Shown here: piece after piece, positions 10,065 to 49,700 of the stretch
Layout of the letters: each line of letters begins with the position of its first letter
Position numbering within the stretch: the first letter of the stretch is position 1
Source: a virus
Reading direction: 5' to 3' (one strand)
IMG/VR virus record: IMGVR_UViG_3300017917_001176
Location: 1-64,000 of that record
DNA: 64,000 nt
Translations under genes and position numbers: made by a program
The notes under the pieces: generated by a model
The model's database searches: none
The model's input: only the letters and a program-made list of their open reading frames with translations
What the model was told of the DNA's origin: nothing

Positions 10065-10065
10065 C

Positions 10066-24189: not shown

Positions 24190-24902
24190 ACAAACAACTC
24201 CTTGGGCAAATTACCATTCATCATTCTAATGCTGATCTGTTCTCGCTGTACGTCAAATTTACCAAACTGAAAAACTCGTTCAGGAGTATCACCGTTCATT
24301 ATGTACTTGGGTACTTCGTAACTCCACCGCCAGCTGTTCCAAATTGGATATAACATTTTGATTTCATTGTTAACAAATCCGTAGTAGGAAACATCGTTCA
24401 CTGGAAACAGATATAATCGAACGCCATCACGCCAGGTGTACTCTTTTGTTTTAGCATACAGTTGACTGAAACGATGTGCTGCCACTGCGGTTAACTGTGC
24501 AGGTGTTGCCTGCTGTTCTAGATTTGTATAGTAGATAAAATTATCATCTTCGTATTCAATTGGCGGCATGATATCAAATTCGTCACTGCGAGTGATCTGC
24601 TCAAAACGATTGATTATAAGAGCTCGCTGCTCGAGGTCCAGCGCATCACCAAACTCTGCTGGTAGTACTCTATTCCATCCAGACTGCATTCTAGCAAAGT
24701 ATTCTGGATTGTGTTGATTGATTAAATGTATGTACTTGAATGTAAAATTAATTGACCGTGGAACAATTACCTGCTGCGCTGTTCTAAAATGAAAATGATA
24801 ATAACTGTTGTTGCGTTTGGCTTCCTCTACCGTTGCATCAGGTAACAAGGAAGCCAATTGTTCAAACGTTTGAACTAGAAAGTAATTGTCCTGATCAAAC
24901 AT
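24186..24902 (-). CDS. Unrecognised protein linking rSAM and sugar genes
   Basis: 238 residues, aromatic and acidic (EYEDDNFIYYTN, NDVSYYGFVNNEIKMLYPIWNSWRWSYEVPKY). No domain recognised, no membrane segment, no Cys cluster. ATG/TGA overlaps on both sides place it firmly inside the operon between the radical-SAM genes and the transketolase/halogenase genes. Tyr/Trp-rich character may indicate a sugar- or peptide-binding role, but this is only a guess. Confidence 0.65.
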   Translation of the reverse strand: MFDQDNYFLVQTFEQLASLLPDATVEEAKRNNSYYHFHFRTAQQVIVPRSINFTFKYIHLINQHNPEYFARMQSGWNRVLPAEFGDALDLEQRALIINRFEQITRSDEFDIMPPIEYEDDNFIYYTNLEQQATPAQLTAVAAHRFSQLYAKTKEYTWRDGVRLYLFPVNDVSYYGFVNNEIKMLYPIWNSWRWSYEVPKYIMNGDTPERVFQFGKFDVQREQISIRMMNGNLPKELFV

Positions 24903-25990
24903 TATTCTTTTACGTGTCGGCTTAGGTAGAAGTCACCGCCGCAGTAGTCCCAGCGACAAGTGGTTCCTGTTTTATACAAGATAGACAATTTTGTTACGGC
25001 TAACTTGTCATGCACTAAATTTGTATACGGCGTCTCGGGCTGACTTTCGCGAATGAAGTTGGTCATGTGTATTCCACAATGAAAAACATTGCCATCACCG
25101 TTGATAGTAATTGATTCCTGCCCAGCAGCACACTGCCACCCACGAGCATCTACGCCCAATTTAAACAAGTCGTTGGTTGTGTATATCTTACCATCAATGT
25201 CGTACCGCTGCTCTGTCTTGTTATTTTCTTTATAAAACTCCATGTGCTTCGCCGCAACATCTTCTGGATACACATAGTGACAGAACCCGTATATCATTTC
25301 GCAATTTACTATCTTGTCGTAGGTAAGGTAATACTTAACTCTCTCGTAGAATTCTTCTGGAACTATCTTGATTATTTTGCCCTGATGCCAACGATCACCT
25401 CGTTCAACATTCTCCATCATGACATCCATGTTGTGTATCTCTACACCCAGTTCTTTTAAAACTTCCCAATTGTGGTCAAAGTTCTTGAGTTTGTTCAATC
25501 TCTTTAATTCAAGATAGTGAAAGCTGGCATTAAACTGATCGCAATACGGCAACATCTCACGCAACTTATCTTCGCCAATGGTGAGATTGGTTTGCATTTC
25601 GTTGTATGCCTTAATATCTGTTTCTTTGCCCTTTTGATGTATGTACTTTAGAATGTCTAAGCAACGAGGATGTCTAGTAGGTTCCCCGCCGTGATAATAA
25701 AATAGCACAGACTTAAATTGTTGTTTGACAAAAAATTCAAATAGTCTATCTATGGTTGTTATTATATCTTGATATTCATAGTGTCTACCGCTGTGCCAGT
25801 GACAGTAGTTGCATTTTAGATCACACGCTTCAGTTATACGAAACGTAACCATGTACTGATATTCAACTCCGCCGCTTTGTTCAGCGGGAGACAAGACTTT
25901 ATAGTGATGCTGAGGAACGATCTGCCCAACTTGCATATCCTCTTTATCTCTAATAACTTTGATTTTGCCTAGTTTATCTTTCATGGTCAT
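24902..25990 (-). CDS. Radical SAM enzyme 1
   Basis: 362 residues. Cluster motif CDLKCNYC (Cys56, 60, 63) in a FRITEACDLKCNYC context, then YYHGGEPTRHP (the GGEP SAM-binding motif). The C-terminal part contains CAAGQESITINGDGNVFHCG, a SPASM-like auxiliary region that appears incomplete, and ends TTCRWDYCGGDFY. Radical SAM enzymes use a [4Fe-4S] cluster and SAM to make a 5'-deoxyadenosyl radical. Overlaps the upstream gene by 17 bases. First of seven in this cassette. Confidence 0.9.
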   Translation of the reverse strand: MTMKDKLGKIKVIRDKEDMQVGQIVPQHHYKVLSPAEQSGGVEYQYMVTFRITEACDLKCNYCHWHSGRHYEYQDIITTIDRLFEFFVKQQFKSVLFYYHGGEPTRHPRCLDILKYIHQKGKETDIKAYNEMQTNLTIGEDKLREMLPYCDQFNASFHYLELKRLNKLKNFDHNWEVLKELGVEIHNMDVMMENVERGDRWHQGKIIKIVPEEFYERVKYYLTYDKIVNCEMIYGFCHYVYPEDVAAKHMEFYKENNKTEQRYDIDGKIYTTNDLFKLGVDARGWQCAAGQESITINGDGNVFHCGIHMTNFIRESQPETPYTNLVHDKLAVTKLSILYKTGTTCRWDYCGGDFYLSRHVKE

Positions 25991-26813
25991 CCATTATACT
26001 ACGTTTGCTTTGCGCAGTCAAGCTACGATTAATGAATCGCATGAGCTCACCGTAATATTGATTGTCATCCATTTCACGACCAGTAATTTTAAAACTGGTC
26101 ACACCCATATCTATTAGACGTCGCATGTTATCGGGTTTGATGTCCATGCAATCGTGCTTGCTGTCTTTACTATAGTCAAATTTTGGAATCCAGCATTCTT
26201 CAACTTCTCTTGAATAAGGGTTGCCCGCTGTGTTTTCGTCTGCAATGGCTTTGAAGTGCTGATCCCAATACTTGCACCCATACACACAGGTATCGTTTAA
26301 CATCACTTCCCATTTGGTTGCATCCAGTTCGTTGCTGCGAGGATCAAAGATATGTTCAAATCTTGGCACTATCCAATCGTAGTCCTGCTCCAACTGTTTG
26401 TAAAATGCAATGTCACTGTCCTGTAGTGGAATGTTCAACAGGCCCATGCCTGTGATACTGTAGATCAAATCATAGTCGGGATAGTGAGTGCGCACATACT
26501 TGCGCAGATCTTCATTCACAATGATCAGTGCGTTGCCCTTGCGATGAAACTTTTCCAACAGTTGATTGCCCAGTTCATCTGTTAGGTCTATCTTGTAGTT
26601 GCTCATGGTCAGTGCAATGCTTATGCCCTTGCTGTAGTAGAACTCCATGAGTCCTTCGTTGTAGTACACACTGCGATTGATACGGCCACCATTCCAACGG
26701 CATTTGTTTATGCCATCGTACACAACCAGCTGAGTGTTGTCCACCAATTGGTTGCTCAAAAACTTTATGATTGGCACGCTCTTACTAAAGGCACCAGCGA
26801 TTAAATATCTCAT
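25974..26813 (-). CDS. U32-peptidase-like TIM-barrel protein
   Basis: 279 residues from ATG 26813, which overlaps the upstream stop (ATGA). Features that recall U32-type proteins (UbiU/V, YhbU): an alternating beta/alpha pattern, WEVMLNDTCVYGCKYWDQHF with two Cys near a His, and VTSFKITGREMDDNQYY near the end. Radical-SAM neighbours are common for U32 proteins, some of which carry Fe-S clusters. The assignment rests on motif resemblance only. Confidence 0.45.
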   Translation of the reverse strand: MRYLIAGAFSKSVPIIKFLSNQLVDNTQLVVYDGINKCRWNGGRINRSVYYNEGLMEFYYSKGISIALTMSNYKIDLTDELGNQLLEKFHRKGNALIIVNEDLRKYVRTHYPDYDLIYSITGMGLLNIPLQDSDIAFYKQLEQDYDWIVPRFEHIFDPRSNELDATKWEVMLNDTCVYGCKYWDQHFKAIADENTAGNPYSREVEECWIPKFDYSKDSKHDCMDIKPDNMRRLIDMGVTSFKITGREMDDNQYYGELMRFINRSLTAQSKRSIMDDHER

Positions 26814-27748
26814 TTTAAATTTTCTTTGGGAAAGTTGAACATATTCTCGCATTTGCAGCAGTCCAACGGGCAAACTTCTTGTTGTATAAAATCCACTGCC
26901 TTGGGCATCAGCTTCCCAACCTTGCGTCCTGTACAGATATTTTCAATCTCTCCGTTTACACTGATTTCGTAAAACAACGGGGTACAGGTAAATCCTTTGA
27001 ACCGATCGAATCGTTTCTCATAGATTTGAAAATCATTTAGATACTCTACTGTGCCATCGTTGAATTCATATTTATGAGTTAAATTGATGTGACTGGCTCT
27101 TTGCGACATGTCAGCAAATGACCAATCCAACTCAGACTGAAACAGCTCGTAAAATTCTTTGGAGTAGGCCGATGTCCAATGGCTAGTGTCTGACAGAATC
27201 TGCAAACTATAATTGACTCCATTTTCTTTCAGTAGTTTAATTCGTTCCAACGTAACGGGCCAATGTTTGCTTTCGTCGCTCATGATCAGCGTGACAGAAA
27301 ACTTTATGTACTGTGAGTCTTTGAGTGACAATGCTTTGTCTATAAACTTGTTGTCTACAAAGTCAGGGTGCAAGGATGCTGCAATTTCAACACCCGTTAA
27401 CTCTGGCCTATCTAATTTTTTGTAATAGTTTAAACTGCGAGATAAGTTTGTAGCAACCAGTACACCTTTACAGTGCGGAATACTTTTTACTTCTAACAGT
27501 ATGTCTGCCATCTTAGGATGCAGTGTAGGTTCACCGCCTACCATGTCTATTTCAAAATCTGTGTCTAATTTTTTCAATCTAGCCAGAGTGAACTTGTACT
27601 GGCTCATGCTGTCTTCGTGTTGCCAATTCTCTGTCATCTTGCCAGCACTGGCACAATAGTTACAGCTGAAGTTACACCAATTGGTTAGATACCAACTGAA
27701 GTGTATGGTTTTGTATTCAGGATTGCCTGCACGAATTATTGAGCGCAT
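26810..27748 (-). CDS. Radical SAM enzyme 2 (AGNPEY family)
   Basis: 312 residues from ATG 27748, which has a perfect AAGGAGG site. N-terminus RSIIRAGNPEY, cluster motif CNFSCNYC (Cys25, 29, 32), then DMVGGEPTLHP. The C-terminal region has CTPLFYEISVNGEIENICTGR and a terminal Cys cluster CPLDCCKCENMFNFPKE. It is a close paralogue of the next upstream enzyme (27736) and of that at 30288. Probably two Fe-S clusters. Confidence 0.92.
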   Translation of the reverse strand: MRSIIRAGNPEYKTIHFSWYLTNWCNFSCNYCASAGKMTENWQHEDSMSQYKFTLARLKKLDTDFEIDMVGGEPTLHPKMADILLEVKSIPHCKGVLVATNLSRSLNYYKKLDRPELTGVEIAASLHPDFVDNKFIDKALSLKDSQYIKFSVTLIMSDESKHWPVTLERIKLLKENGVNYSLQILSDTSHWTSAYSKEFYELFQSELDWSFADMSQRASHINLTHKYEFNDGTVEYLNDFQIYEKRFDRFKGFTCTPLFYEISVNGEIENICTGRKVGKLMPKAVDFIQQEVCPLDCCKCENMFNFPKENLK

Positions 27749-28641
27749 GGTGCCTCCTTGTAAAAATTCAGCATGCTTTCGCACACACAACAATCTCTAG
27801 GACAGCTGACCTTGCGCAGCAGTTGTTCCTGTTTTAAAAACAAACCATTGAATCTTTGTCCTGTGCAGGTGTTGGCCACAGTGCCATCGAAGTATATTTC
27901 AAAGAACTGCGGAGTACAGGTGTACCCAGTTAGTCTGTGTAGGTTTTGATTGTACACTTCCAGACTGCTCAACTGCTGTGGTCCGCTATCAAACTCATAT
28001 GAGAATCTAGCATCTGCTGGTGTCTCAAACTGTTGAAACAAAGCAAAACATTCTGGCGTGTAATCGGGTGTCCAGTCTGTGCTTTCGTGTAACCAATGCA
28101 GTCCGTAGCTGATGTTGCGACTGGACAATTGTTCAATCAATTCCAGCGTGACAGGCCAGTGTGCTGGGTCATCTGATATGTTCACACTCACGCGAATATT
28201 TAGATGCTGCATGCGATTAATGGCATCAGCTTTTTCTATAAAGTCTTGATTGTAATATTCAGGATGAAAACTAGCAGTCACAGTCATGCGACTCAATGAC
28301 GCTTGATCCAAGTCTGAAAAGTAACTTAGTGGTCTGGATAGATTGGTGAACAATTCAATTCGTTGGCAAAGCTCAATGCTGCACAGTTCAGTTAGTATCT
28401 CTGTCAACTGCGGATGCAGTGTAGGCTCGCCGCCTAGCAGTTCAATTTCAAAGGGTGCGTCAAACTTTTTCAGTTTGGTCAGTGTTAGTTTGTAGTTGCT
28501 TGAGCTTTGTTCTTTTTGCCATTTGTCTACCATGACCAATTGTTCATAGCAATAGCTGCACTGGTAATTGCACCAATTGGTCAAGGTCCATGCAAAATGG
28601 AACTTGTTGTATTCAGGATTGCCTGCACGTAGTATCTGCAT
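27736..28641 (-). CDS. Radical SAM enzyme 3 (AGNPEY family)
   Basis: 301 residues from ATG 28641, coupled to the upstream gene by a TGATG junction. QILRAGNPEY start, cluster motif CNYQCSYC (Cys24, 28, 31), ELLGGEPTLHP, CTPQFFEIYFDGTVANTCTGQ and the terminal CPRDCCVCESMLNFYKE. Shares its whole architecture with enzymes 2 and 6, indicating tandem duplication and divergence within the cassette. Substrate unknown. Confidence 0.92.
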   Translation of the reverse strand: MQILRAGNPEYNKFHFAWTLTNWCNYQCSYCYEQLVMVDKWQKEQSSSNYKLTLTKLKKFDAPFEIELLGGEPTLHPQLTEILTELCSIELCQRIELFTNLSRPLSYFSDLDQASLSRMTVTASFHPEYYNQDFIEKADAINRMQHLNIRVSVNISDDPAHWPVTLELIEQLSSRNISYGLHWLHESTDWTPDYTPECFALFQQFETPADARFSYEFDSGPQQLSSLEVYNQNLHRLTGYTCTPQFFEIYFDGTVANTCTGQRFNGLFLKQEQLLRKVSCPRDCCVCESMLNFYKEAPCAQ

Positions 28642-29396
28642 CACATCAAAAAGCACTTGTCATGGTTGCAAATACCATTGTGCTTTTCCCTATAGCAACA
28701 GTTGTACAGCTCTAAATTAGGACCATATAAAAAGTACTTGTCATTGTACAAACATGGTTTGCCCCGCGGACTAAATTCTGGATCGTCCCAGAGCTCTGAT
28801 CTATCTTTGCCCAATCGTTTGACTTCTTCAAAACGCACCAACTTTTGATACGCAGGATCCTTGCGCATTTTATTGTACAACGCAGTAGACCAATTGCTCA
28901 CTCCATCACCAAAGTCAGCGATAGGAGTCAGAAACACGTTCACATCAGGGTGTACCAACTCTTTGATTTTGAAATAGTAGATCAATGCTTCCTTGCCTGT
29001 GAACATAACATCAATGGTTCTTATGGTAGCTGTAACGCTGGACAGCACATCCATGAATTCTTCAACTGACACTTCAGTTGGATGCACACTGACCTGCAAC
29101 AGGTACGGGTCTGTGATTGTTTTCATCACCCGAGCACTGTGCGCAGACAGGTTGGTTTGTATTACAAAAGGTATAGAAAACTCATTGAAGCATTGTATGA
29201 TCCACTGAATGTCTGGATGAACAAATGGTTCGCCACCAAACACAAAAACTTCCACACCAGGGTATTGCTCTCCAAGGCCGCGCACAAAGTCACGCACCAC
29301 ATCACGATCCAGAACTGGATGTATGGTTTTATCTAGGTTCGTGCAATACACACATGAGTAATTGCACTTGAGTGTAATTTCCCATTCAACCTGCAT
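28641..29396 (-). CDS. Radical SAM enzyme 4 (short)
   Basis: 251 residues, shorter than its relatives. The cluster motif is at the very N-terminus: CNYSCVYC (Cys11, 15, 18), then FVFGGEPFVHP. The C-terminus has CLYNDKYFLYGPNLELYNCCYREKHNGICNHDKC, a Cys-rich tail that could bind a second cluster. It begins within the end of enzyme 5 (overlap 11 bases). Not of the AGNPEY subgroup. Confidence 0.9.
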   Translation of the reverse strand: MQVEWEITLKCNYSCVYCTNLDKTIHPVLDRDVVRDFVRGLGEQYPGVEVFVFGGEPFVHPDIQWIIQCFNEFSIPFVIQTNLSAHSARVMKTITDPYLLQVSVHPTEVSVEEFMDVLSSVTATIRTIDVMFTGKEALIYYFKIKELVHPDVNVFLTPIADFGDGVSNWSTALYNKMRKDPAYQKLVRFEEVKRLGKDRSELWDDPEFSPRGKPCLYNDKYFLYGPNLELYNCCYREKHNGICNHDKCFLM

Positions 29397-30291
29397 CTTT
29401 TACCTTTAGCTGTTTGAGCAAGCCATCGCAGTTGCATGCCCGATGTGGACATATCATTGGAACTGTTTTTGTAATGTTCTTAAAGAAGTCAGGTTGTTGC
29501 AATAGGTTAACGTGATTGCATTTATCTAAACAAAACTTAACCACGTTACCATTGACATCAATTTCGTAATTGTTGTTATAGCAACTCCACCCTTGGAAAT
29601 TGGTTAGTTTGTCACGGAACACTATGAAGTCATTGAACAACTGATCGTCGTACACTAGATCCTTCTCATAGTGTTCAAGAAAAGCAAAGTATTCCCAGAA
29701 GTCCTTGCGATAGTTGAACAGTTTGCTGATACTGTTACCGTATAGAAAGTGCGGATGTATCTTGAGTCCATCTATACCCTCACAGATATCAAACATTTCT
29801 TTAATCAAAGGCCATAGCTTCTTATCATGATGCAACATGATGTTGACTTTGCACTGATACCCGCGACTGATCATTAACTTCATGTTGGCAATAAACCGTT
29901 CACGATTGGTACAGTCTGCAGGATGATAACTGAACAAAAAGGCCAACCCTGGATAGTCAGGATGATCTGTAAAATCTTTTTCTGCATTGGTTACCACGTA
30001 CACACGATTGTATGTGGGCAACTGAGTTATCTGTTCCAGTATGTAATGATAGTATGGACCAAGAGTAGGCTCACCACCTAGCAGTCCTAGGTTAAAGCTC
30101 AGGCTACTGCGGCGCAAGGATTCCACAACACCATCAATGATTTCTTTGCTGCTCAACTTGCCCCATTCTTTACCGTATTCATTTCTAGCATAGCAGTAGG
30201 AACATTGCAGTTGACAAATGGTCAGGCTGTCCCAATGCACATTTATGTGATCTGGGTTCTGCTGAATGTGATGTTGTCTACTGTAGTTCAT
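29386..30291 (-). CDS. Radical SAM enzyme 5
   Basis: 301 residues from ATG 30291 (ATGA overlap with the upstream gene). QQNPDHINVHWDSLTIC leads into cluster motif CQLQCSYC (Cys26, 30, 33), then LLGGEPTLGP. A C-terminal GWSCYNNNYEIDVNGNVVKFCLDKC is followed by CPHRACNCDGLL, equivalent to the terminal Cys cluster of enzymes 2, 3 and 6 but diverged. Probably a distant paralogue with another role. Confidence 0.9.
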   Translation of the reverse strand: MNYSRQHHIQQNPDHINVHWDSLTICQLQCSYCYARNEYGKEWGKLSSKEIIDGVVESLRRSSLSFNLGLLGGEPTLGPYYHYILEQITQLPTYNRVYVVTNAEKDFTDHPDYPGLAFLFSYHPADCTNRERFIANMKLMISRGYQCKVNIMLHHDKKLWPLIKEMFDICEGIDGLKIHPHFLYGNSISKLFNYRKDFWEYFAFLEHYEKDLVYDDQLFNDFIVFRDKLTNFQGWSCYNNNYEIDVNGNVVKFCLDKCNHVNLLQQPDFFKNITKTVPMICPHRACNCDGLLKQLKVKDAG

Positions 30292-31205
30292 AATTTCTTT
30301 TTTGGAAACTCTAATGTTTGTTTGCTCAAGCATACTTCACGTGGGCAGATTTCTTTTCTAACCAAATTGTTATCGCCCAAACTCAGTCCCACTTCTCTAT
30401 TGGTACATAGATTAGTTATCACTCCTTCGCGGCTGATTGAGTAATAAACCGGAGTGCATTCATAACCCTGGAATTTATTCCAATGGTTTATTTCTATTTC
30501 GTGGTCTTTGAGCATGGCGTGGGTGCCATCTTCAAACTCCACTGGAATCTCAAAAGGATGATCTGTGTCATCAAAGTACTGCCCGAACCTCTCATGAAAT
30601 TCTGATGTATAATTGGCAGTGAAGTTTTGATTGCTGATCAAGAGATTCAAACGTGTTTTTACTTTTTTCTCCAGCAAACGCTCAATTACCAACTGTGTGC
30701 TATCCCAGGTGTCGGGTTGATCTTTAAGATTCAACTGTACCACAAACTCGCGACAGTGTTGATGCAGCTCAATGGCTTTTTCTAAAAACTTGTCCTTGTA
30801 GTACTCTGGATGATATGCTGCCATGATCAGCAACTTGTTTTCATTGAACTTGTTGAGCACGTTCAATGCTTCTACTTGTTTATAGAAGTCCACGCTGCGT
30901 GACAGGTTGGTCATCACTGCTATCTGTACACAGTTGTCTATAGCAGACATCTTGTTAACAATATCCAAGAACTGTGGGTGTAGTGTGGGCTCGCCACCGC
31001 TTAGGCACATCTGAAAGTTTCTTTGCACTGTGCCCAATCTAGCCAGGACCATTTTGTAATCAGCATGTCTGGGCTGTGTGAAGTCATTGGTTACCACGTG
31101 CAGCACTGGACAATAGCTGCACTTGTAATTGCACCAGTCAGTCAGGTGCCATGCAAATTCAATGCGTTGAAAGTTTGGATCGCCGCAGCTCTTAATTGGA
31201 TTCAT
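30288..31205 (-). CDS. Radical SAM enzyme 6 (AGNPEY-related)
   Basis: 305 residues. SCGDPNFQRIEFAWHLTDW leads into CNYKCSYC (Cys25, 29, 32) and CLSGGEPTLHP; then CTPVYYSISREGVITNLCTNR and a terminal CPREVCLSKQTLEFPKKK, in which two of the cysteines of the homologous cluster are missing. Paralogue of enzymes 2 and 3. Overlaps the glycosyltransferase gene upstream by 14 bases. Confidence 0.92.
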   Translation of the reverse strand: MNPIKSCGDPNFQRIEFAWHLTDWCNYKCSYCPVLHVVTNDFTQPRHADYKMVLARLGTVQRNFQMCLSGGEPTLHPQFLDIVNKMSAIDNCVQIAVMTNLSRSVDFYKQVEALNVLNKFNENKLLIMAAYHPEYYKDKFLEKAIELHQHCREFVVQLNLKDQPDTWDSTQLVIERLLEKKVKTRLNLLISNQNFTANYTSEFHERFGQYFDDTDHPFEIPVEFEDGTHAMLKDHEIEINHWNKFQGYECTPVYYSISREGVITNLCTNREVGLSLGDNNLVRKEICPREVCLSKQTLEFPKKKL

Positions 31206-31851
31206 GTAAAAAGTCCATGGATGCTGTGGTGTTCACTGAGCTGTTGCTGTCCGGAAAGGATATGTTATCGCCACCGTCTGTGGTTTGAAAGTACAGTACC
31301 CGGTTAGTAGTGCGTATGAGTTTGCTACGTGCTGCTGAGTGCATGACCAGAGCAATGTCGTTGTGAATGTTGTTGTCCATTGGAAATGCGAAATCCACAA
31401 TAGTACTCTTTTTAAATATATGCTGCCCCAATTGCAAACGCTCCAGATCCAGTTGCAGACAAAACTCTCGCGCATCAGTCCACAATTGCTCTTGGTGCAT
31501 GCTCAAACATTTGACCCAATTTGGCTGTTGTGCTGGCATGTAATTGCCAACTATGAGATCTGCGTTCAGCTCTAGCTTGTTAAAGAAGTCTGCAGACACA
31601 TAGTCATCATCTTCAAGATAGTACACATACTCGCCTGTGGCCTGTTGCAACAAAAATTCATATATCATGCTCAAGTTGTCAAACTTCTGATAATGGTACT
31701 GTACCCGGGCATGAGGTATTTCCACAATGTCGTTGCTGTCATTGTTCACAATAACTTCAACGTCAGTAGGCAATTGTCTTAGCACACTGTTTAGACAACG
31801 TTGGAATAGATCAGGACGCTGATGCGTCAATATCAAAATGCTCAGTTTCAT
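31192..31851 (-). CDS. Family-2-type glycosyltransferase
   Basis: 219 residues, GT-A fold signature: SILILTHQRPDLFQRCLNSVL at the start, VNNDSND, and the metal-binding acidic motif YYLEDDDYVS (about 75-84). Shorter than average; the acceptor-side half is divergent. Transfers a sugar from a nucleotide-sugar to an acceptor. It sits between radical-SAM genes and overlaps both, so it is part of the same pathway, possibly glycosylating the product or the modified protein. Confidence 0.85.
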   Translation of the reverse strand: MKLSILILTHQRPDLFQRCLNSVLRQLPTDVEVIVNNDSNDIVEIPHARVQYHYQKFDNLSMIYEFLLQQATGEYVYYLEDDDYVSADFFNKLELNADLIVGNYMPAQQPNWVKCLSMHQEQLWTDAREFCLQLDLERLQLGQHIFKKSTIVDFAFPMDNNIHNDIALVMHSAARSKLIRTTNRVLYFQTTDGGDNISFPDSNSSVNTTASMDFLHESN

Positions 31852-32924
31852 TTGAAGTGATTCTTTCTATAGAAAGTCACTTGGGTGATCTTTTCGCCTT
31901 CTTCTGGAAACACTGGAACATTCTTTAGTTCGCGCTCTACACCATCGCAGATGTAAAAATGTTTGCATTTCAAGCAGTCCACTTCTTTGCGATAGAATCG
32001 TACCCGGTGGTCCGCACAGTGATCGTGTGCAAACTTTAACTTCTCTTCTGTTGTGTACTCACGGCTTACATCAATCTTGACGCCACGCTCGTCAATGTAC
32101 ATTTCCTTGTTCCAGTCATACAGGTCGTAGATGTGTTGGTATTGATCACACACATACTGTTCGTAACCTTTCATGTAGCAGTAAGGAACATAGCGCACAT
32201 TGATCAACATGTTCTTGTTCAAGAGGTCAATGCACTTTTTGATGTTGTCTGTCATGTCCTTGTAGCTGACATTGTCTGTGTCAATCTCCACTTGGTCCCA
32301 GTAGTTCAAGGTAATAAAGTTAACTTCCAATGGAGCAATATCATTGATCAGTTGTGCGTACACATTGTCCAACTGAAAGTAATTCTTGTAATATACTGTG
32401 CAGTTGATCCGTACAATCATGCCCAGTTCCTGTGCATTCTTGATACCTTGTAGAATACGTTTGAAACTGCCTTTGCGATTGGTAATGGCATCATGTGTTT
32501 CTGCTGTGCCACCGTGTAGACTGAACAGCACTTCTTTGAGTCCATGTGCTTGTGATTCTCTCAGGAACTCTATGTTGGCAAATTTGCCGCCATGGCTCAA
32601 ACAACTCACATGCTCAAATCGTTCGTTACAGTAGTCCAGTATTTCAAACCAGTCTGGACTCACACTGCTTTCACCGCCGCTGAGATCCACTTGTGTGATC
32701 CCGTATGCTTTTAAATAGTCTGCTCGTTGCTTGACCACTTCCACCGGTGTCTTTACATCCAGCTGATCACGATAGTAACAGAACTCACAATCATAGTTGC
32801 AAAAGGTTCCTGTGTCTAGCTTGGCTCGATTACAACGAGGAGTTTGGTAATCAATTTCAATGCCGTGCGTACTCAACTCATTCAATGAGTTAGCATTAGC
32901 GTTGAGTACTATTGGCATTTTCAT
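31848..32924 (-). CDS. Radical SAM enzyme 7
   Basis: 358 residues. Cluster motif CNYDCEFC (Cys42, 46, 49), then VDLSGGESS (a GGE motif). LHGGTAETHDAITNRKGSF is typical of SPASM-type peptide maturases and anaerobic sulfatase activators. The C-terminal third contains CADHRVRFYRKEVDCLKCKHFYICDG, a Cys-rich region that can bind an auxiliary cluster. Differs from the AGNPEY paralogues. Overlaps genes on both sides by four bases. Confidence 0.9.
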   Translation of the reverse strand: MKMPIVLNANANSLNELSTHGIEIDYQTPRCNRAKLDTGTFCNYDCEFCYYRDQLDVKTPVEVVKQRADYLKAYGITQVDLSGGESSVSPDWFEILDYCNERFEHVSCLSHGGKFANIEFLRESQAHGLKEVLFSLHGGTAETHDAITNRKGSFKRILQGIKNAQELGMIVRINCTVYYKNYFQLDNVYAQLINDIAPLEVNFITLNYWDQVEIDTDNVSYKDMTDNIKKCIDLLNKNMLINVRYVPYCYMKGYEQYVCDQYQHIYDLYDWNKEMYIDERGVKIDVSREYTTEEKLKFAHDHCADHRVRFYRKEVDCLKCKHFYICDGVERELKNVPVFPEEGEKITQVTFYRKNHFK

Positions 32925-34971: not shown

Positions 34972-35373
34972 TTATCTCCTTAGGTACTCTTCTACTATGC
35001 TATTTACGCCGGCTTGATCATTATGATCTGCCAGTCTCTGTAGTTTAGTAATAATATCTTGGTACTCTTGCTTTTTGTGTTCAATCTTTTTCATATTGTC
35101 AGCAAGAGTAATATAACGCTCTAGGTCAATGATCAGACTTTCGTCGCCCGATTCGATAACTTTGATATAGCATTCTTCTCTGTTGTTATCGGTAATAAAA
35201 ATACCTTTGCTGGCAAACTTGTTGTTCAATTGCATAAACGAAACAAAATCAAGCAAAGTAAAAATTAACAGCTCATCACCCATGATTCCACGAGCTTTGA
35301 CTTTGACCGCTACTGCTGCTTTGCCTGCATAGGTGGTGCCATCAATTCCTTCTATTTCTTTTACTTCTTTCAT
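34972..35373 (-). CDS. Small protein adjacent to Cys-rich fibre
   Basis: 133 residues, starting one base after the fibre protein stop codon. N-terminal half looks beta-rich (TYAGKAAVAVKVKARGIMGDELLIFTLLD), the C-terminal half is a helical, charged region (RYITLADNMKKIEHKKQEYQDIITKLQ) that may form a coiled coil. No family recognised. Likely a structural or chaperone-like partner of the fibre (by position). Confidence 0.65.
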   Translation of the reverse strand: MKEVKEIEGIDGTTYAGKAAVAVKVKARGIMGDELLIFTLLDFVSFMQLNNKFASKGIFITDNNREECYIKVIESGDESLIIDLERYITLADNMKKIEHKKQEYQDIITKLQRLADHNDQAGVNSIVEEYLRR

Positions 35374-35374
35374 G

Positions 35375-36025
35375 TTATCCTTCGATCATGTTCACTGGTA
35401 GTTGAGAATAGTCAACAAAGTAATACCCACCGCGGTCGGTACCAAGTGCTGACTCATATTTTGTTCCAAGTAGTTCTTGTGCAATTACACCAATATACTT
35501 TTTGTCTTTGTTCCACTTGTAGGTATATGAATACACATTCAAGTCACCTTCTGTACGCAGGAACTCAACATTGTCTTTTAGACGTTGGTCACTGTAGTTA
35601 CAGTTACAGGTACAAGCATAGTTACAGTTACAGGTACAGTAGTTACAGTTACAGGTACAGTAGTTACAGTTACACAAACACACTGCGCCAGCAGTTTTAA
35701 CTTTCTGAATCATTGCATTAATATTAGCAGCGTACACAATACCATCTACGGCAACGTTGGTAAATCCTGCTGCGTATGGATAACTGCCAGTGGACAAATT
35801 TCCCTGCATGAGATTCAAATGTCTAGCAAGGATGTTTCCATCTGTGTACACTGTTTGTACTGCTCTTGCGGCATTACCTCTGCGAGCAAGTTCAGAGTTT
35901 ACAATTCCGGCCAACTCTGCCATCTTAGATGCTAGTACCCTGCTGTCAACTGCTGCATTAGCTGTTGTGTAGGTTACTGCATCGTTGATTGCAGTTCCAC
36001 CTTGTTGTTCTGGTCCAATTGGCAT
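35375..36025 (-). CDS. Cys-rich repeat fibre protein with S74-type C-terminus
   Basis: 216 residues. Residues 1-110 are a soluble virion-type domain. Residues 116-142 contain 12 cysteines in CNCNYCT units, an extraordinary density. From 145 (SDQRLKDNVEFL) to the end is the S74 intramolecular-chaperone/endosialidase-tip type domain, with YIGVIAQEL as the usual core. This domain trimerises and then autocleaves in phage fibres; here the catalytic Ser145 is in the expected SDQRLK context. The genes just upstream are radical-SAM enzymes and two small proteins, so the Cys/Asn/Tyr repeat is the likely substrate (inference). Confidence 0.85.
   Translation of the reverse strand: MPIGPEQQGGTAINDAVTYTTANAAVDSRVLASKMAELAGIVNSELARRGNAARAVQTVYTDGNILARHLNLMQGNLSTGSYPYAAGFTNVAVDGIVYAANINAMIQKVKTAGAVCLCNCNYCTCNCNYCTCNCNYACTCNCNYSDQRLKDNVEFLRTEGDLNVYSYTYKWNKDKKYIGVIAQELLGTKYESALGTDRGGYYFVDYSQLPVNMIEG
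35594..35680 (-). repeat. In-frame 21-base tandem repeat encoding CNCNYCT
   Basis: On the minus strand the codons TGT AAC TGT AAC TAC TGT ACC repeat about three times with near-identical DNA, one unit altered to TAT GCT TGT ACC. Near-perfect codon identity indicates recent expansion by slippage. Each unit adds four Cys on average to the fibre protein, so repeat number could vary between isolates. Confidence 0.85.
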
Positions 36026-36037
36026 TTCTATTTCCTT

Positions 36038-36421
36038 TTAAATTTCTTTTTTAAGAAAATCTAAACTGTCAGCTGCTTTGGTCTGCGCTAAAAACTTTTC
36101 GTAGTCGTCTAGATCTGATGTAATAAATTCCAAGGTGGCTGCGTCTGGCACTTTAGTACTCAAAATTTCAGTTTCGGTCTGCAAGGAATTGGTTAGAATA
36201 TGACTGACCAATTGCTCTAGGTCGTATCCCAGTGCCTTGGACACAAAGTCAACCTGCTGTGTGAGATCCACTGTTTCGCGTTTGCCAGCTTCTGCAACTG
36301 CTTGAATGGTATTCACTGTGATGCCAAATCCTTCTAGTAGCAGCGCACCAACAGTTGGATCCTCATCGCTGATCTCTTTGATAAGTGCATAAATTTGTTC
36401 GATTTTTTCAACGATAGTCAT
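36038..36421 (-). CDS. Small helical protein between rSAM and fibre
   Basis: 127 residues, predicted mostly helical and acidic (MTIVEKIEQIYALIKEISDEDPTVGALLLEG, then VDLTQQVDFVSKALGYDLEQLVSHIL). No Cys, no membrane segment, no known motif. It overlaps radical-SAM gene 8 upstream by four bases and precedes the fibre by 12 bases. In RiPP systems small partner or peptide-recognition proteins occupy this place; whether it has the winged-helix RRE fold cannot be told by eye. Confidence 0.65.
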   Translation of the reverse strand: MTIVEKIEQIYALIKEISDEDPTVGALLLEGFGITVNTIQAVAEAGKRETVDLTQQVDFVSKALGYDLEQLVSHILTNSLQTETEILSTKVPDAATLEFITSDLDDYEKFLAQTKAADSLDFLKKEI

Positions 36422-37317
36422 GTTAGTTCCTTGTCTTTAAAGTCATGAAATTTTGGAGAGTTTTCGTAATTCTCGTACGTTGTGACATTACCTTCGTCCG
36501 TATAATACGTTTTGAGCTCTTTTCTTTCACCACAACCACTGCACATGTCGCAGAAAAGCTCGCAAACAGGCGTGGATATAGTCTTATTTATCCAGTCCTG
36601 ACGCAGCAGCTTTTTTGCATCTTGCAGCTTTTGCATGTCTTCGGGCTGTAGTGTGCTCCAGGCCACGCTGGTGATCAGGCGCCCTGGGCGGAATGTTTTA
36701 ATAACACGAGTCATGTCTTCATACAGGTGATTTATGTTGCCCTGCTGTATGGTATATCTAATGCGGAATTTTACTCCGTTTTTTAACAGATTGCGAAACA
36801 CCTGTATCATCATAGGAGTGGACTCTGTTCCAGCATGTGTTACTCTGTCCTGATTACCAATACCGTCAAAACTAACATCAATGCTCAACAGTCCACGCTG
36901 GTAGAAAAACGTGTTTTTAACTTCGTCAATAAACCGCTGACTTAGGAATTTGATGCCATTGGTTTCCAAATTAAAATGCACATTGTTCTTTTTATTGTAT
37001 GCGTATTCCATTGCATAGCACACGTTCTCCCATTCCAATGTGGCTTCGCCGCCAAACAGTACAATCAATGTTTGGTTATCTGGATTTTCTCTAGCCAGTA
37101 TCGAATCAATGGAGTCTCGTATGTTTTGCTTTGATAGTATCTGCGGAGGCCGACCTGGCAAATCCTCGTAGCAGTAGGTACACGCCAAATTGCACTTGTT
37201 GGTAAAGTATAGAACATTAACGCCAGATCCTGCGGGTGTAGGAAGATCTGTTTTATCGCCTACATAAAAGTTTAGGCCAGGGTTCGCACCAACAAAGGAT
37301 CCAACAATCTGACTCAT
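36418..37317 (-). CDS. Radical SAM enzyme 8 (fibre cluster)
   Basis: 299 residues. Cluster motif CNLACTYC (Cys42, 46, 49) preceded by VNVLYFTNK, then VLFGGEATLEW, SIDVSFDGI. The C-terminus has VCELFCDMCSGCGERKEL, a compact Cys cluster shorter than a full SPASM domain. Overlaps the small gene upstream by four bases. Immediately precedes the 127-residue protein and the Cys-rich fibre gene; a peptide-modifying role is inferred from that position and the SPASM-like end. Confidence 0.92.
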   Translation of the reverse strand: MSQIVGSFVGANPGLNFYVGDKTDLPTPAGSGVNVLYFTNKCNLACTYCYEDLPGRPPQILSKQNIRDSIDSILARENPDNQTLIVLFGGEATLEWENVCYAMEYAYNKKNNVHFNLETNGIKFLSQRFIDEVKNTFFYQRGLLSIDVSFDGIGNQDRVTHAGTESTPMMIQVFRNLLKNGVKFRIRYTIQQGNINHLYEDMTRVIKTFRPGRLITSVAWSTLQPEDMQKLQDAKKLLRQDWINKTISTPVCELFCDMCSGCGERKELKTYYTDEGNVTTYENYENSPKFHDFKDKELT

Positions 37318-37634
37318 TGTATAATCATCTTATGTTTGTTTTTGTATCGCTCTTCTTCACGCATGGCTTTTGCTTGTTTGATTATATGACTCATGTTTTC
37401 TAAAAAACGCACATAGTCATATTTGTAGTCAAACAGATGTCCACGCTCGTCGAGTTCAAAGCCAACATACTGACTGTCTACCTTGGCTTTACCTTTACGT
37501 GCTTCATCAATCTGCGCTTGTAACTCTTCTGTGGTTAACACTCGATTGCTTGCATGCTCAACAGGCTGCATCTCAACCTTGATAGGTACAGCAATAATAC
37601 TCTTAAAAGATTTTTTTGGTTTTAGTTCCGACAT
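37314..37634 (-). CDS. Small charged partner protein of rSAM cluster
   Basis: 106 residues, basic/acidic with a beta-like start (FKSIIAVPIKVEMQP) and a long helix (EELQAQIDEARKG; later YVRFLENMSHIIKQAKAMREEERY). No Cys. Starts within the end of enzyme 9 and ends overlapping enzyme 8. A recognition or scaffold protein for the substrate is plausible by context; no sequence evidence for a fold. Confidence 0.65.
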   Translation of the reverse strand: MSELKPKKSFKSIIAVPIKVEMQPVEHASNRVLTTEELQAQIDEARKGKAKVDSQYVGFELDERGHLFDYKYDYVRFLENMSHIIKQAKAMREEERYKNKHKMIIQ

Positions 37635-38746
37635 TCCACACCCTCGTTTTCTACACCAACGTTTTCAATGTAATGCAATATCAAGTCTTGGAACAATGGT
37701 TCATCGCGGCATTCTTCAACCACACGCATGGCCTGTTCATAATAGATATGAAACAGTTCGCAGATACTGTCCAATGGCTTGTTATCATTCATAACCTGAC
37801 TATAGGTACAGCCTGCATTACATACCTGCTTGAGATCGCAAGGCTCGCACTTGTCATAGCTGCCTGGATTGAAAATCTTTTGATAGTACTTGAAGTCGTA
37901 TGCTTCGTCCATCTTCATGATCTTCTTGCTGGCAAAACGAGCACAGGGATAAAACTCTCCTGAACTCATTAGCACACCGCCATTGGTTCCTGCGAAGCAA
38001 CCAAACTGTCGCTTGCCTTTGACCAAGCCGTATAGAATATCTAGTATGGCCAATCTTAAAAATCCAACACTGCACGGAACGCCTTCTTTGATCTTCTTGA
38101 TCCAGAATGTTGCTAGACGTTCGCATTCATAGCGGAATTCAACAATGTCTTCTCTGGTCCATACGTCATCTCTTACGATAGAGAAGTCAGGATGCTCGAT
38201 GCCCCAGCTTAATAGGAACTCAAAGTTCTCTACCATGTCCTTGGTGTTGCCAGGCCAAATCATCACCTTGCATCCGTTGGTAAGACCAGTGATCAATTCC
38301 TTCTTGTAATTGTACATGTCCAGAATACCGTCAAACAGTTCACCTGTTTCTGGATTGGTATTTTCCAACAGCGGCAACAAAGGTCGTGTTTCGTTAGAGC
38401 TCATACCGTCAAAGCTCCAACTAACACCCACACCGTTTTCTCTAAGATAAGTGGCTTTTTCCTCATCAATCATGGTGAGGTTGGTAATGATGTTAATACC
38501 CTTACACTTTTTGTCTGCTCTGAGTTTAGGTACTGCATGTTTGATCAAATCAAAGTTCAACAGCGGCTCGCCACCAAAGAAACTCACGTGATACTCTGCA
38601 TCACCTGATCGTAACATCAGCTTGTGCAGATCCACTAGACCTTTGTCAAATATTTCGTTGGTCATCCAAGTAGGACGGTTGGCCACATAACAATACGGGC
38701 AACCTAAATTACATTTTTCTGTTACGCTTACTTCTAGAGTGAACAT
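37622..38746 (-). CDS. Radical SAM/SPASM enzyme 9 (fibre cluster)
   Basis: 374 residues. Cluster motif CNLGCPYC (Cys12, 16, 19), VSFFGGEPLLNF, VSWSFDGM. Full SPASM-type C-terminus: GCFAGTNGGVLMSSGEFYPC, then CEPCDLKQVCNAGCTY and IC, enough cysteines for one or two auxiliary clusters. SPASM enzymes mature ribosomal peptides and sulfatases. Overlaps enzyme 10 by 13 bases. Confidence 0.94.
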   Translation of the reverse strand: MFTLEVSVTEKCNLGCPYCYVANRPTWMTNEIFDKGLVDLHKLMLRSGDAEYHVSFFGGEPLLNFDLIKHAVPKLRADKKCKGINIITNLTMIDEEKATYLRENGVGVSWSFDGMSSNETRPLLPLLENTNPETGELFDGILDMYNYKKELITGLTNGCKVMIWPGNTKDMVENFEFLLSWGIEHPDFSIVRDDVWTREDIVEFRYECERLATFWIKKIKEGVPCSVGFLRLAILDILYGLVKGKRQFGCFAGTNGGVLMSSGEFYPCARFASKKIMKMDEAYDFKYYQKIFNPGSYDKCEPCDLKQVCNAGCTYSQVMNDNKPLDSICELFHIYYEQAMRVVEECRDEPLFQDLILHYIENVGVENEGVECRN

Positions 38747-39840
38747 TGCTCTGCCTCAAATTTAATCACTGGCTTTTTATAACTCTTGAGTGCAGTACGC
38801 AGTGCATGATGAACGATCTCATTGCTTTTGAATACTTTGCAAACCTGCCAGTTACTGGTGTGGTCGCTCCACTTCTCAAGGTATGTATCTTTCTCAGACT
38901 TTTCATATGTGGCTGCATTACATTTCATACAGAACTGACTGTCGCAGCTAATACAGTCCAGCGGCTGATTCTTCAGCGCATCTCTGTACATGTCTGTTTT
39001 TTCTTTAATCAGTGCATCTAGGTCTGGTGCCTTAAAGATGTTGCCAATCACGTGTGCATGAGATTCTTTGTACATACAACCGTGGCAAGGACTGATATCG
39101 CCATTCAAGTCTACGCTGATATAGTTGATACCAGATGCACACAAGGCACGACTTTGTGTGAACCAACCAAACTTTTCCGGAGGCAGTTTGTTTACATAGA
39201 TGTACTTGGCAATCTTGGTCAAGCCTTCTTTAAGCACTTCCAGGCGCGGCATGAACTCTTCTTCAGTTAACTGTGAGTACATGTCGGGTGTTGGAAAGTA
39301 GTTTTCGTCTAGTTCAATTACATCAAGAAACGCTTCGTAGATCAAATGAAAGTGTTCTGCTGTGAGTACGCTTTTCATGCGCACGTTCAAGCCTGCTTGC
39401 TTGGCAGCAAGGTAGTTTGATTTAACCAATGTAGAACTTGGATTGCCTGCCTTGTCAATACGAGTAATATCGTTTACTGGCTTGCCATCATAGCTGACCT
39501 GAATATTCAAACGATTTGGCATAGCTTCGTGCAAACGCACTAGATCCTTAAGATACTTTTTCAAGTATACGCCATTGGTGTAAAAGAAAAAGCTGTAGTT
39601 GGTGTCGTCTTTGTATTTCTCCATTACGCCACGGCAGAAGTCATAGTTAACAAATGGCTCGCCGCCCCAGAAGTAAATATCCTTCTTGGGATCGCTGATT
39701 TTGTTCATGAACTCTTCGATGTTTTCCAAGGTTACTTCTGTGTTTTCCTCGTATGCTGTGCTCAGACCGCACTCAAATCCTTCTGAACAGTAGGTGCAAG
39801 CTAGATTGCAAGTACTGGTTACATTAATATCAATTACCAT
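38734..39840 (-). CDS. Radical SAM/SPASM enzyme 10 (fibre cluster)
   Basis: 368 residues. Cluster motif CNLACTYC (Cys11, 15, 18), IYFWGGEPFVNY, IQVSYDGKPV. SPASM-type end: CASGINYISVDLNGDISPCHGCMY, then CISCDSQFCMKCNAATY, all auxiliary-cluster cysteines visible. First of the three fibre-cluster enzymes, overlapping the sugar dehydrogenase gene upstream by 11 bases. Probably acts on the same protein substrate as enzymes 8 and 9. Confidence 0.94.
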   Translation of the reverse strand: MVIDINVTSTCNLACTYCSEGFECGLSTAYEENTEVTLENIEEFMNKISDPKKDIYFWGGEPFVNYDFCRGVMEKYKDDTNYSFFFYTNGVYLKKYLKDLVRLHEAMPNRLNIQVSYDGKPVNDITRIDKAGNPSSTLVKSNYLAAKQAGLNVRMKSVLTAEHFHLIYEAFLDVIELDENYFPTPDMYSQLTEEEFMPRLEVLKEGLTKIAKYIYVNKLPPEKFGWFTQSRALCASGINYISVDLNGDISPCHGCMYKESHAHVIGNIFKAPDLDALIKEKTDMYRDALKNQPLDCISCDSQFCMKCNAATYEKSEKDTYLEKWSDHTSNWQVCKVFKSNEIVHHALRTALKSYKKPVIKFEAEQCSL

Positions 39841-40567
39841 TTCTATACCCTTTGTTAAGTTCTAATACGGTGTCCAACAATGCTAGTTTGTATTTATGGG
39901 TTAAAGCCTGCGTGTCTTTGGGCAAGCAAGGGCCGCCAAATCCTCGCTGGCCGTCTGGCCCAGGAACTGCAAAGTGATGTGAACCCATCCACGGATGCGT
40001 GGACAAAATCTCTGCCGCAGTAGCATAATCTGCACCCATATCCTGGGCAACATCATAAATGGAATTCATGTATGTTACTTTGAGCGCATAGAATGTATTC
40101 ATTGTGTATTTTATAAGAGATGCCGTGGGAATGTCAACCAAATAACAGTTTGATGTGTCCACAGTTGATTCTCTAGCATACAGATCCAGCAGCTCTTGCC
40201 CACGCCGGCCGCCAATGATCAGGTATTCTGGATTAACAAAATCCTCTAGAGAAGTGCTGCGAGTTAAAAACTCTGGGTTGTACAGCACATCAAACCCTGC
40301 GAGATGCTCTGGCAGCACTGTGCTTTTGACCACCACTAGACCTGTGTAGTTGGAGTCTTTGATTTCTTGTAAAACTGATTTGAGCAGTGCGTAGTCTGTG
40401 CCATCCGAGGGTGTAGGAACGCACACAAAGATTGCATCCAGCTCCATTTTGCAAAGGTGCTTGACGCTTACTGTGTTATATTTAGGGTCTGAGTAAAATA
40501 CTTGAGTTTTGGAAAAGCCGTGTTTGACGGCTCTTCCAACCATGCCGTAGCCAATAATTCCGATCAT
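39830..40567 (-). CDS. Truncated UDP-glucose/GDP-mannose dehydrogenase-like protein
   Basis: 245 residues versus about 390-440 for complete family members. NAD domain (IGYGMVGRA at 5-13, FVCVPTPS, VVVKSTVLP, YNPEFLTRS), then the central dimer domain and catalytic Cys214 in GFGGPCLPKD. The C-terminal UDP-sugar-binding domain is missing entirely, because the stop comes soon after the catalytic loop. Some phage/archaeal minimal forms may still be active. First gene of the fibre/rSAM operon, following a hairpin. Confidence 0.85.
   Translation of the reverse strand: MIGIIGYGMVGRAVKHGFSKTQVFYSDPKYNTVSVKHLCKMELDAIFVCVPTPSDGTDYALLKSVLQEIKDSNYTGLVVVKSTVLPEHLAGFDVLYNPEFLTRSTSLEDFVNPEYLIIGGRRGQELLDLYARESTVDTSNCYLVDIPTASLIKYTMNTFYALKVTYMNSIYDVAQDMGADYATAAEILSTHPWMGSHHFAVPGPDGQRGFGGPCLPKDTQALTHKYKLALLDTVLELNKGYRNGN
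39891..39897 (-). promoter_or_regulatory. T4-late-promoter-like ATAAATA inside the dehydrogenase gene
   Basis: Minus-strand ATAAATA lies 51 bases upstream of the start of radical SAM enzyme 10, inside the end of the dehydrogenase coding region. It could give separate late expression of the fibre/rSAM genes. Motif match only. Confidence 0.3.
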
Positions 40568-46720: not shown

Positions 46721-49700
46721 CTAGGGTCTTTCAAGCCAGATAGTACCTTGTGGTACACTGGAGATTATTGTGCTTTGATACGTTGCAGTATTTGCATTAC
46801 CAGAGAAGCCATTGTTGACTTCAAGGTCTTGTGTAATACTCAACACCGTATCACGAGTGATAATTTGTTCAGCACTTGCATCAGTAATTATGCTGCCCAC
46901 AGGGTGAGCTAACGGAATACTGGTTCTTGCAGCACCACGTCTGATATCAGTCAGTACATTGCGTCCATAATCAATACCAAAGTAATTGATCTTTTCTGCA
47001 TTGATCCAAATAGATCCAGGCTGGTTCTGAGAAGCATTTGGCTCTGGCAGCTTGGCCACATCGTCGACTGCAACTTCTTCTGAATCGTAACTGAGTTCGC
47101 TGGTCAGTATCACTGTGTTAGCAGCTGGCAAACGATAATACACTGTTGGCAATTTGTAATCTGTGAATGCTTTGTAAGCAATCACATTACCGTAGTCAAC
47201 ATTACCATTTACAACATTGGCCGTGAACACGTTCATTTGCAGACTATCAATCACTTGTCCAGGTACCAGTTCTTCTGGTGCATGGCTGCTGAATGTGTCA
47301 ATGTACTTGCCGCCGTTGATGGTAATATCTTCAGGGCGTGTGCCTAGTTCGTTATCAGTGTAAACGCTGGTGATCTGTGTATCCAGGCTCAGAATGTCTG
47401 TTGCTGTTTCTGTATACGGTTGTCCAATTACTCGTGCGCCTGGATAACTGGTACCTGGAACTAGATCTGGAATATCCTTTGCCAGATGATCCAGTACACC
47501 ACCAATGGTATAAGACTTGGTGCTGGTAATTGCCACACCACCTAGTATGCCCAGTGTAGTGTTAGCTTCCAATGTGTACCCTGCACCCAGTGTGGCAGTA
47601 TTTGCAAACGCCAGTGTGTAGGTATCCTTGTTCAAGAACTGTGTGGTTCTCAATTGCAGTTTGGTACCAGTGGTGTCAAAGAATGTTACCAATGCACCAG
47701 CTGGAATATTTGCTGTGAACGGTGTGTTCAGTTGCACTGTGGTTGTGTTCACACTCACGCTGTTGTAGTCAATGTTAACATCTTTACCACTGCTTCGTGC
47801 ATACTGCCATGTAAAGTTTGCAAAGCGACCAACTTGTTTAACTCTTGCACCAGTTGGCATGCCTGTACCTGAAATGGTCCAGTTGCCTAATACTTTGGTA
47901 TAATTGTCTACATAGACAATGTTGTCGCCTTTGCTTGCAGCTCTACTGGTTACCAACTGTATGCTTGCACTGTTTGGTCCAGTGAATGTTAGTGTTGTTC
48001 CAGATGGAATATCATCAACAAATCCGTAACTGAATGACACACGTTGATTAACGCCTGCAGAAACTGTGGCTGTTGCAAATGCAATGGCAATTGACCACAG
48101 TGTGGTTTCTGCATTGTAACTGACTCCTGTTACCAAACTATCGTCTGGTAGCAAGGATGCAGTGACTGTCATGCCTGCAAATACTTCGCCTGCTAGGTCT
48201 GTGGATGGAATCAGCACGGTCAACGATGTTGCATCTGTTACTGCGTCCCAGTCAGCTGATGGAGTTCTTGTACCTGCAGACAACACAGGATTAACTGCGC
48301 CCAGCTCAATGTAAGCTTCACTTTGTACGCCCGGGTAACCCCAGATGATTGTACTTTCGTTGCCTACAACCACAAACTTTTCACCGTCCCAGGTTACGTC
48401 TGAGAAGTTGATAGTCTTAACTGCGGCAGGACTCAGTGGGCTGATAAAATTATCAGCGTTGAATGCTCTGAAGTTTTTAAACACTTCAATACCGTAGTTA
48501 ACCACAGTTTTACCAATAGTGTCACTGCCTAGTTCTGCTGCGCCTGATCTGAGTTGTACTGGACTATCTAACTTGTTCCAGATCAGTGTACCAGCTGAAC
48601 CAACTGCCACCAACCAACGATCTGTTTCGCCACTGAGTGCAATAGCATTGATCTGTTGTCCACTTACACCATCGCCTTGTCCAATTACATCAATTGGGGC
48701 TTTCATTTCAATCCATGGGTAAGCACTGTCTCCAGCTTTGCCTGCATCGTAGTTGTAGCCTTTGGCATAACCCAACAGCGCATCTTCTAATCTAGCATAG
48801 CTGGTAATAAAGAAGTTACCGTTGTTGCCTGCTGCAATTACAAAACCTTGTTGCAAGCGATTGTTGCTGGTACCACTGGTTGTAAAGTATCCTGAGTCTT
48901 GCAGATCCACTGCATAGGTTGTTCCGTTGTTGTCAGTTAGGTCGCCAAATGATTGAGAGAACAATGTCAGGAACTGTATTGGAGTTCCATAAATTGTAGG
49001 CTGTGGTTTCGCACTGTACCAACCTTGATCCAGATCCAATGAAGTATCATACGGATTCATCAGTATGTTGCTACCGTTACCTGCTGCAATCACGTAGTTG
49101 CCTCTGGTGCCAGTTACTTCGGCCACTGCTGTAAAGTCAATTGCCTGACTTGCATTCAACAGTGTACTACCAGAAGTGTTGTCAATGGTTGGTGAGAACT
49201 GATATTCAGTTACAACTTCTTTTGACCAATCCACTGCATTATCACTGGTGAGCAGTGTGGCTTGATTACCAACTGCAATCCAAGTGGTTCCATTGAACAA
49301 ACAAGCATCGCGAAGATTAATTTGGTTCTCTGAAATAAATGCAACTACCCAGTTTGTGCTGTTCTTGCTCAGTGCGATCAGTCCGCGATTACCAACAGCA
49401 ATGTATTGATATTCGTGTGTTGCTGGAACAACACCGCTGTGTTTTACTGCGTTCCACTCATTGCCCTGCGAGCTAACTGCGTCATTGGTATTACTGTCAT
49501 CCAAACGATTGGTATCTGGACTGCTGTACAATGTAGCAATATCTGGAGTACCAGGTTGATTGTATGCAGCCACACGGTCAATTGCATTGTCAATGTCTGA
49601 ACCACGTAATTTTTGTACTACAGTTTCATCGTCAAAAATATTCAAGTTCAGAGTATCTGTGCCCAACACAGTTTTTATTGCTAGGTACACGTTGTTGTAA

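Follow-up and report, generated by a model that had tools for sequence, protein, structure and literature searches.

The question raised by the locus described here is why a virus would keep several radical S-adenosylmethionine (radical-SAM) enzymes directly beside a fibre-like protein with a cysteine repeat. The locus lies in the IMG/VR virus record IMGVR_UViG_3300017917_001176, of which a stretch of 64 kb out of 77,051 bp was analysed (the window). A minus-strand operon spanning 40567-34972 encodes three radical-SAM enzymes (A, B and C), two small proteins and a 216-amino acid (aa) protein in which a Cys repeat is followed by an S74 chaperone domain, referred to below as the Cys-tip protein. 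The answer favoured here, and considered fairly likely, is that the phage encodes a maturation cassette for its own fibre-like protein; the weakest part of this reading is the thioether step that is proposed for the enzymes. The gene coordinates and Cys counts given in a first-pass annotation of this DNA were correct, and its description of a single overlapping operon holds from a dehydrogenase-like gene through small protein 2, which are joined by overlaps of 4-13 nucleotides (nt), but not for the Cys-tip gene, which starts 12 nt later. The genes that it listed do form part of the operon, to which the dehydrogenase-like gene and a conserved downstream gene also belong.

The Cys-tip protein carries 12 Cys within residues 116-142, and its earlier assignment as an S74-type protein with a Cys repeat was borne out, as the match to PF13884 lies above the cut-off (Table 1). 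In the AlphaFold model, the N-terminal domain (about residues 32-113) is helical and the S74 domain is predicted with confidence, but the predicted local distance difference test score falls below 50 at residues 119-144; this low score of the repeat fits modification, metal binding or a requirement for trimerisation, and proves none of them. Foldseek with the model of the 216-aa protein returned nothing significant, and tblastn of the protein in phages recovered S74 matches only, because the repeat is of low complexity. In 58 distinct repeat proteins, comprising 469 heptads, the consensus of the repeat unit is C-[TP]-C-[ND]-C-N-[YF], with 3 to 28 units per protein and sometimes one additional residue between units. 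Position 6 of the heptad is Asn in 417 of the 469 units, and position 7 is aromatic or His in more than 95%. Neither Lys nor Arg occurs in the repeat, which would therefore escape a standard tryptic analysis. When the window repeat is compared with those of its relatives in homologous pairs, up to 18 of 27 codons differ synonymously with mostly 0-1 amino acid changes; therefore, the protein sequence is what is kept, and a chance or DNA-level repeat is ruled out by the codon comparison.

Self-cleavage of S74 domains takes place immediately ahead of a Ser that is paired with a Lys five residues on (PMC3742443). Ser145 and Lys150 of the Cys-tip protein match this dyad and come immediately after Tyr144, the last residue of the repeat, and by analogy self-cleavage is expected between Tyr144 and Ser145. 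Of the 58 distinct repeat proteins, 14 terminate at the repeat itself and a further 23 after a short SDxxLK stub. With a cut site right after the repeat and proteins that end there, the Cys repeat is expected to form the end of the mature protein. Read from the sequence, the repeat is a predicted C-terminal tip, and the 'fibre neck' in which the first-pass annotation had placed it has to be given up. The same Ser-Lys pair five residues apart, with cleavage before the Ser, is seen in auto-cleaving S74 spikes such as endosialidase; however, known S74 stalks are triple β-helices, whereas the phage proteins described here have the Cys repeat at the cut. The cassettes of L008 (7386-9443), L024 (7956-10520), L028 and L018 each have two to four Cys-tip genes in tandem, most of these genes without a full S74 domain, and these copies suggest either mixed tips or a chaperone that is provided by one copy.

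The repeat and the enzymes are linked in both directions. The pattern C[ND]CNYCTC[ND]C was run through two whole collections, viral and cellular. In the viral collection, 45 stretches on 44 contigs have the heptad pattern, and radical-SAM genes are present on 39 of these contigs; in four of the remaining five, the heptad gene lies 0.15-1.7 kb from the contig end. Among the 11.3 million contigs of the cellular collection, the pattern occurs in only four stretches, all in metagenome-assembled genomes, three of which have relatives of enzyme A or B alongside, and the fourth (Chloroflexi) has one ~5 kb away. Repeat proteins spread over many genomes that lack a radical-SAM gene, named in the first-pass annotation as evidence that would count against an enzymatic role, were thus not what was found.

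Starting from the enzymes, alignment searches of the viral contigs gave 74 and 80 loci. Taking a Cys-rich gene as one with at least 7 Cys in 25 residues, for which only about 5% of genes qualify, such a gene is present in 67/78 A loci and 55/70 B loci, mostly 1-2 genes from a radical-SAM gene. When the A relatives are reduced to 69 distinct ones, 63 have a Cys-rich gene in the locus, and in 32 the start of this gene falls between -31 and +61 nt of the enzyme stop. Relatives of enzyme B occur in 55/69 A loci and those of a fourth radical-SAM enzyme, D, in 30/69; in many loci, the D relatives are found on the downstream side of the Cys gene. Of the six A loci without a Cys-rich gene, two are cut off by contig ends and one (L223) has a weaker Cys block. 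Matches from human-gut clones (L235-L237) were set aside, as their enzymes of 468-479 aa have no Cys repeat nearby and resemble ordinary bacterial maturases.

Many A relatives were found immediately upstream of proteins with a second repeat type, the hexad CxCNxx (e.g. CICNSDCSCNLVCACHNDCGCNYSD), which is then followed by S74; the architecture is as in the heptad type, and the N-terminal domain is similar across repeat types. In the enzyme-A tree, the hexad rows, except for the long-branched L205, group in a single well-supported clade that is separate from the heptad set, and there are 2 changes of repeat type among the heptad and hexad rows; the fine branching of this quick tree is unsure because some branches are long. 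The control set comprised 118 S74 motifs, found in 120 viral loci unrelated to these (1.06 Mb; 9 kb on average, shorter than the test loci): none has at least 3 Cys in the preceding 40 residues, and no relatives of enzyme A or B are present in these loci. The reverse search and the control both agree with the association of repeat and enzymes that the first-pass annotation had proposed.

This linkage bears on an alternative in which the Cys tip is unmodified and either serves as a ligand of metal or of iron-sulphur clusters or forms disulphides, while the radical-SAM genes serve sugars or host metabolism and share a variable host-recognition island with the repeat gene. Pelagimyophages do have radical-SAM cassettes in their host-recognition cluster (PMC7029224), and the window also holds a UDP-sugar dehydrogenase, a glycosyltransferase, a sugar epimerase, a halogenase and seven further radical-SAM genes. 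However, the Cys gene is coupled directly to enzyme A in 32/69 loci, enzyme clades track the repeat type, and both enzymes and repeat protein are present, dispersed, in Campylobacter phage genomes; these findings argue against a shared island as the explanation, which is considered rather improbable.

Enzymes A, B and C score 47.7, 44.9 and 52.6 bits, respectively, against the Pfam radical-SAM domain (cut-off 29.5), and the CX3CX2C core motif is invariant in both alignments (17 B relatives and 16 A relatives). All three had been described in the first-pass annotation as having C-terminal Cys clusters; the auxiliary-cluster cysteines at the C-terminus are indeed conserved across relatives of A and B, while enzyme C, relatives of which occur in most heptad cassettes, has a short cluster only. 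Enzyme B has the full SPASM pattern, with C250, G263, C268, C300, C303, C309, C313 and C329 invariant. Enzyme A has a conserved seven-Cys variant (C234, C252, C296, C299, C304, C307 and C334) and scores 21.4 bits against Pfam SPASM, for which the cut-off is 21.5. The nearest solved structure for the profiles of A and B is 5wgg (E 3e-35 and 1e-25), titled 'Radical SAM domain protein' in the database, which we take to be CteB, a thioether-forming maturase. Among the NCBIfam models, A, B and C all score highest against PapB (NF047865), at 125.7, 74.1 and 68.9 bits; as these scores are far below the cut-off of 340, the enzymes are relatives and not members of the PapB family. The QhpD model (TIGR03906) matches the phage enzymes weakly.

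In comparing the cassette to known systems, CteB and the SCIFF maturases of ranthipeptides are likewise SPASM radical-SAM enzymes encoded beside a Cys-rich substrate gene. CteB acts on a short free peptide, whereas the candidate substrate here is the tip of a fibre-like protein, and CteB carries its own recognition domain, whereas phage A and B start at the core. The thioether maturase PapB accepts Cys-Xn-Asp with n of 0-6 (PMC9413430). The thioethers made by this freyrasin maturase join Cys to Asp/Glu at flexible spacing, whereas in the phage repeat Asn is as frequent as Asp. QhpD, which matures quinohemoprotein amine dehydrogenase, introduces thioethers into a protein and not into a small natural product; its target is a bacterial metabolic enzyme subunit without a repeat, whereas that of the phage enzymes would be a viral repeat protein. 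As in ribosomally synthesised and post-translationally modified peptides (RiPPs), the candidate substrate gene is adjacent to the maturase gene. Strictly speaking, the cassette is not a RiPP system, since it involves neither the removal of a leader nor the release of a small peptide; the predicted cut removes the part after the Cys block.

The enzymes could also modify the repeat in another way, through C-C links, epimerisation or modification of Asn/Tyr, with the Cys serving as metal ligands or in disulphides. The conservation of Asn at position 6 and of an aromatic residue or His at position 7 comes close to that of the Cys; the presence of three or four enzymes in a cassette suggests that more than a single reaction takes place; and the top-scoring model for enzyme D is the sactipeptide maturase AlbA. 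However, it is the Cys that are common to both repeat types while other positions vary, and the nearest enzymes of A and B form thioethers; a chemistry other than thioether formation is regarded as unlikely.

The repeat and the enzymes also occur together in phages that have been cultured. Each of the 15 Firehammervirus (Campylobacter) records has A, B and a heptad protein of 534 aa; this protein had no match in phage records outside Firehammervirus, and the sister phage NCTC12673, which was included in the collection, had no match to A, B or the repeat protein. In CP220, the gene for the repeat protein has those for the tail-fibre attachment catalyst and the baseplate in its vicinity and enzyme A 2.2 kb away, and enzyme B lies elsewhere, close to an annotated UDP-glucose dehydrogenase. 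These are the same protein and enzymes as the 'RRx' repeat protein and radical-SAM genes of CP220/CPt10 (Timms 2010). The CP220 paper noted '21-bp repeats' and 11 radical-SAM genes separately, reading the latter as host metabolism, and draws no link between repeat and enzymes (PMC2853527). A search of the open-access full-text literature gave no earlier description of phage radical-SAM enzymes tied to a tail fibre or to RiPP-type modification, and radical SAM is not mentioned in a survey of jumbo phages (PMC7824862). The kind of enzyme and radical-SAM protein thioethers are known; a fibre-like phage protein as the target and repeat types that are matched to enzyme clades were not found described in that literature and appear to be new.

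A further alternative is that the Cys protein is a secreted or intracellular RiPP-like effector which borrows the S74 fold for its maturation and has no part in the virion. Some members are entirely without S74, and the CP220 repeat protein is absent from the 11 gel bands identified from virions (PMC2853527). However, the Cys-tip gene adjoins fibre genes, S74 domains are a typical feature of spikes and fibres, the N-terminal domain is similar across types, and the CP220 gene has the tail-fibre and baseplate neighbours mentioned above. A role as an effector is thought hardly likely, and the repeat protein is very probably placed in the virion.

Table 1. Features of the cassette, its Cys-tip protein and flanking genes in the window.
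Feature	Coordinates	Strand	Basis or remark
Fibre-like protein, 689 aa	42673-40604	-	First gene in reading order, upstream of cassette
UDP-glucose/GDP-mannose dehydrogenase-like protein	39830..40567	-	Overlaps enzyme A; conserved within cassette
Radical-SAM enzyme A, SPASM-like, variant Cys spacing	38734..39840	-	Domain search and alignment
Radical-SAM enzyme B, complete SPASM pattern	37622..38746	-	Domain search and alignment
Small conserved protein 1, 106 aa	37314..37634	-	Conservation among relatives
Radical-SAM enzyme C, short auxiliary Cys cluster	36418..37317	-	Domain search
Small conserved protein 2, 127 aa, conserved acidic C-terminus	36038..36421	-	Conservation among relatives
216-aa Cys-tip protein: helical N-terminal domain, Cys repeat, S74 chaperone	35375..36025	-	
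Cys repeat, residues 116-144	35594..35680	-	Four CxCNCNY units, last one after inserted Ala
S74 intramolecular chaperone, residues 145-216	35378..35593	-	PF13884, 29.7 bits vs cut-off 22
Conserved downstream protein, 133 aa, phrog_25260	34972..35373	-	
Radical-SAM enzyme D	31848..32924	-	Best NCBIfam match AlbA, far below cut-off

The structure prediction for small protein 1 is of low confidence and has two helices only and no strands. Elsewhere on the minus strand of the window, at 24902-32924, there are seven further radical-SAM genes, interspersed with one for a family 2 glycosyltransferase; a tryptophan-halogenase-like gene (22268-23539) adjoins this array and a nucleotide-sugar epimerase-like gene (20344-21282) lies near it. 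The 77-kb record has 10 radical-SAM genes in total. Upstream of the fibre genes, a single open reading frame of 5,738 aa occupies 46721-63937, also on the minus strand.

Several of the related loci have features of their own. In L013 (7908-10008), an aspartyl/asparaginyl β-hydroxylase-like gene is found two genes after the heptad gene, and its product could act on the Asn/Asp of the repeat; a 2007-aa fibre with GSAGSAG repeats is encoded upstream of the heptad gene. L205 encodes, at 9802-10464, a Cys-rich protein (CGCDANCGCDVNCTC) fused to an apparent intein/Hint-type splicing domain (weak Pfam match). More distant radical-SAM relatives in L229, L232, L141, L142 and L147 lie near proteins with other Cys patterns, e.g. 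CQLTCQVNCQHTCQISCQ. In Erwinia phage phiEaH2 (L234, 3099-7299), adjoining a virion structural gene, two radical-SAM genes lie near small open reading frames with Cys repeats of the GCSGSCSGGCSGKC type; this is a possible third, unrelated viral Cys-peptide system.

In the favoured mechanism, enzymes A and B, together with C and probably D, would act on the Cys repeat while it is still joined to the helical N-terminal domain. The likeliest chemistry would be a series of intramolecular thioethers, each from a Cys sulphur to a neighbouring residue, such as an Asn/Asp carbon. The S74 chaperone would then trimerise the protein and cut itself off right after the repeat, leaving the stapled repeat as an exposed C-terminal tip that may be rigid and protease-resistant where the particle contacts the host. 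The repeat is probably the substrate of these enzymes; given that it is, thioethers are somewhat favoured as the product.

A number of observations weigh against a maturation cassette of this kind. On one contig of 43.8 kb (L057/G010), the heptad gene lies well inside and no radical-SAM gene is present; likewise, the enzyme-A loci L122, L188 and L189 have no Cys gene. None of the scores of the enzymes reached an NCBIfam cut-off, and no RiPP recognition element, a domain that is common but not universal in RiPP systems, was found: A and B begin at the radical-SAM core, and the low-confidence model of small protein 1 has two helices only. The absence of the CP220 repeat protein from the identified virion bands also counts here. 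Some of the adjacency may reflect a shared variable island, because these phages have many radical-SAM genes each (10 here and 11 in CP220).

In its wider form, the proposal is of a widespread strategy in which diverse phage lineages use dedicated radical-SAM maturases to staple, covalently, the Cys-repeat tips of their own fibres that face the receptor or puncture the membrane, and in which at least two repeat chemistries have evolved together with the enzyme clades that match them; the chances of this are put at about even. Such a strategy would be the first instance in which a virus particle is built with RiPP-type chemistry. The cultured Campylobacter phages make the idea of a stapled tip directly testable, and the enzymes would make attractive crosslinking tools for repeat proteins, as substrates with anything from 3 to 28 repeats appear to be served by this one family. 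If the proposal is true, virus particles can carry enzymatically stapled tips, which would add a new layer to virion maturation, and many unexplained radical-SAM genes of large phages would gain a job.

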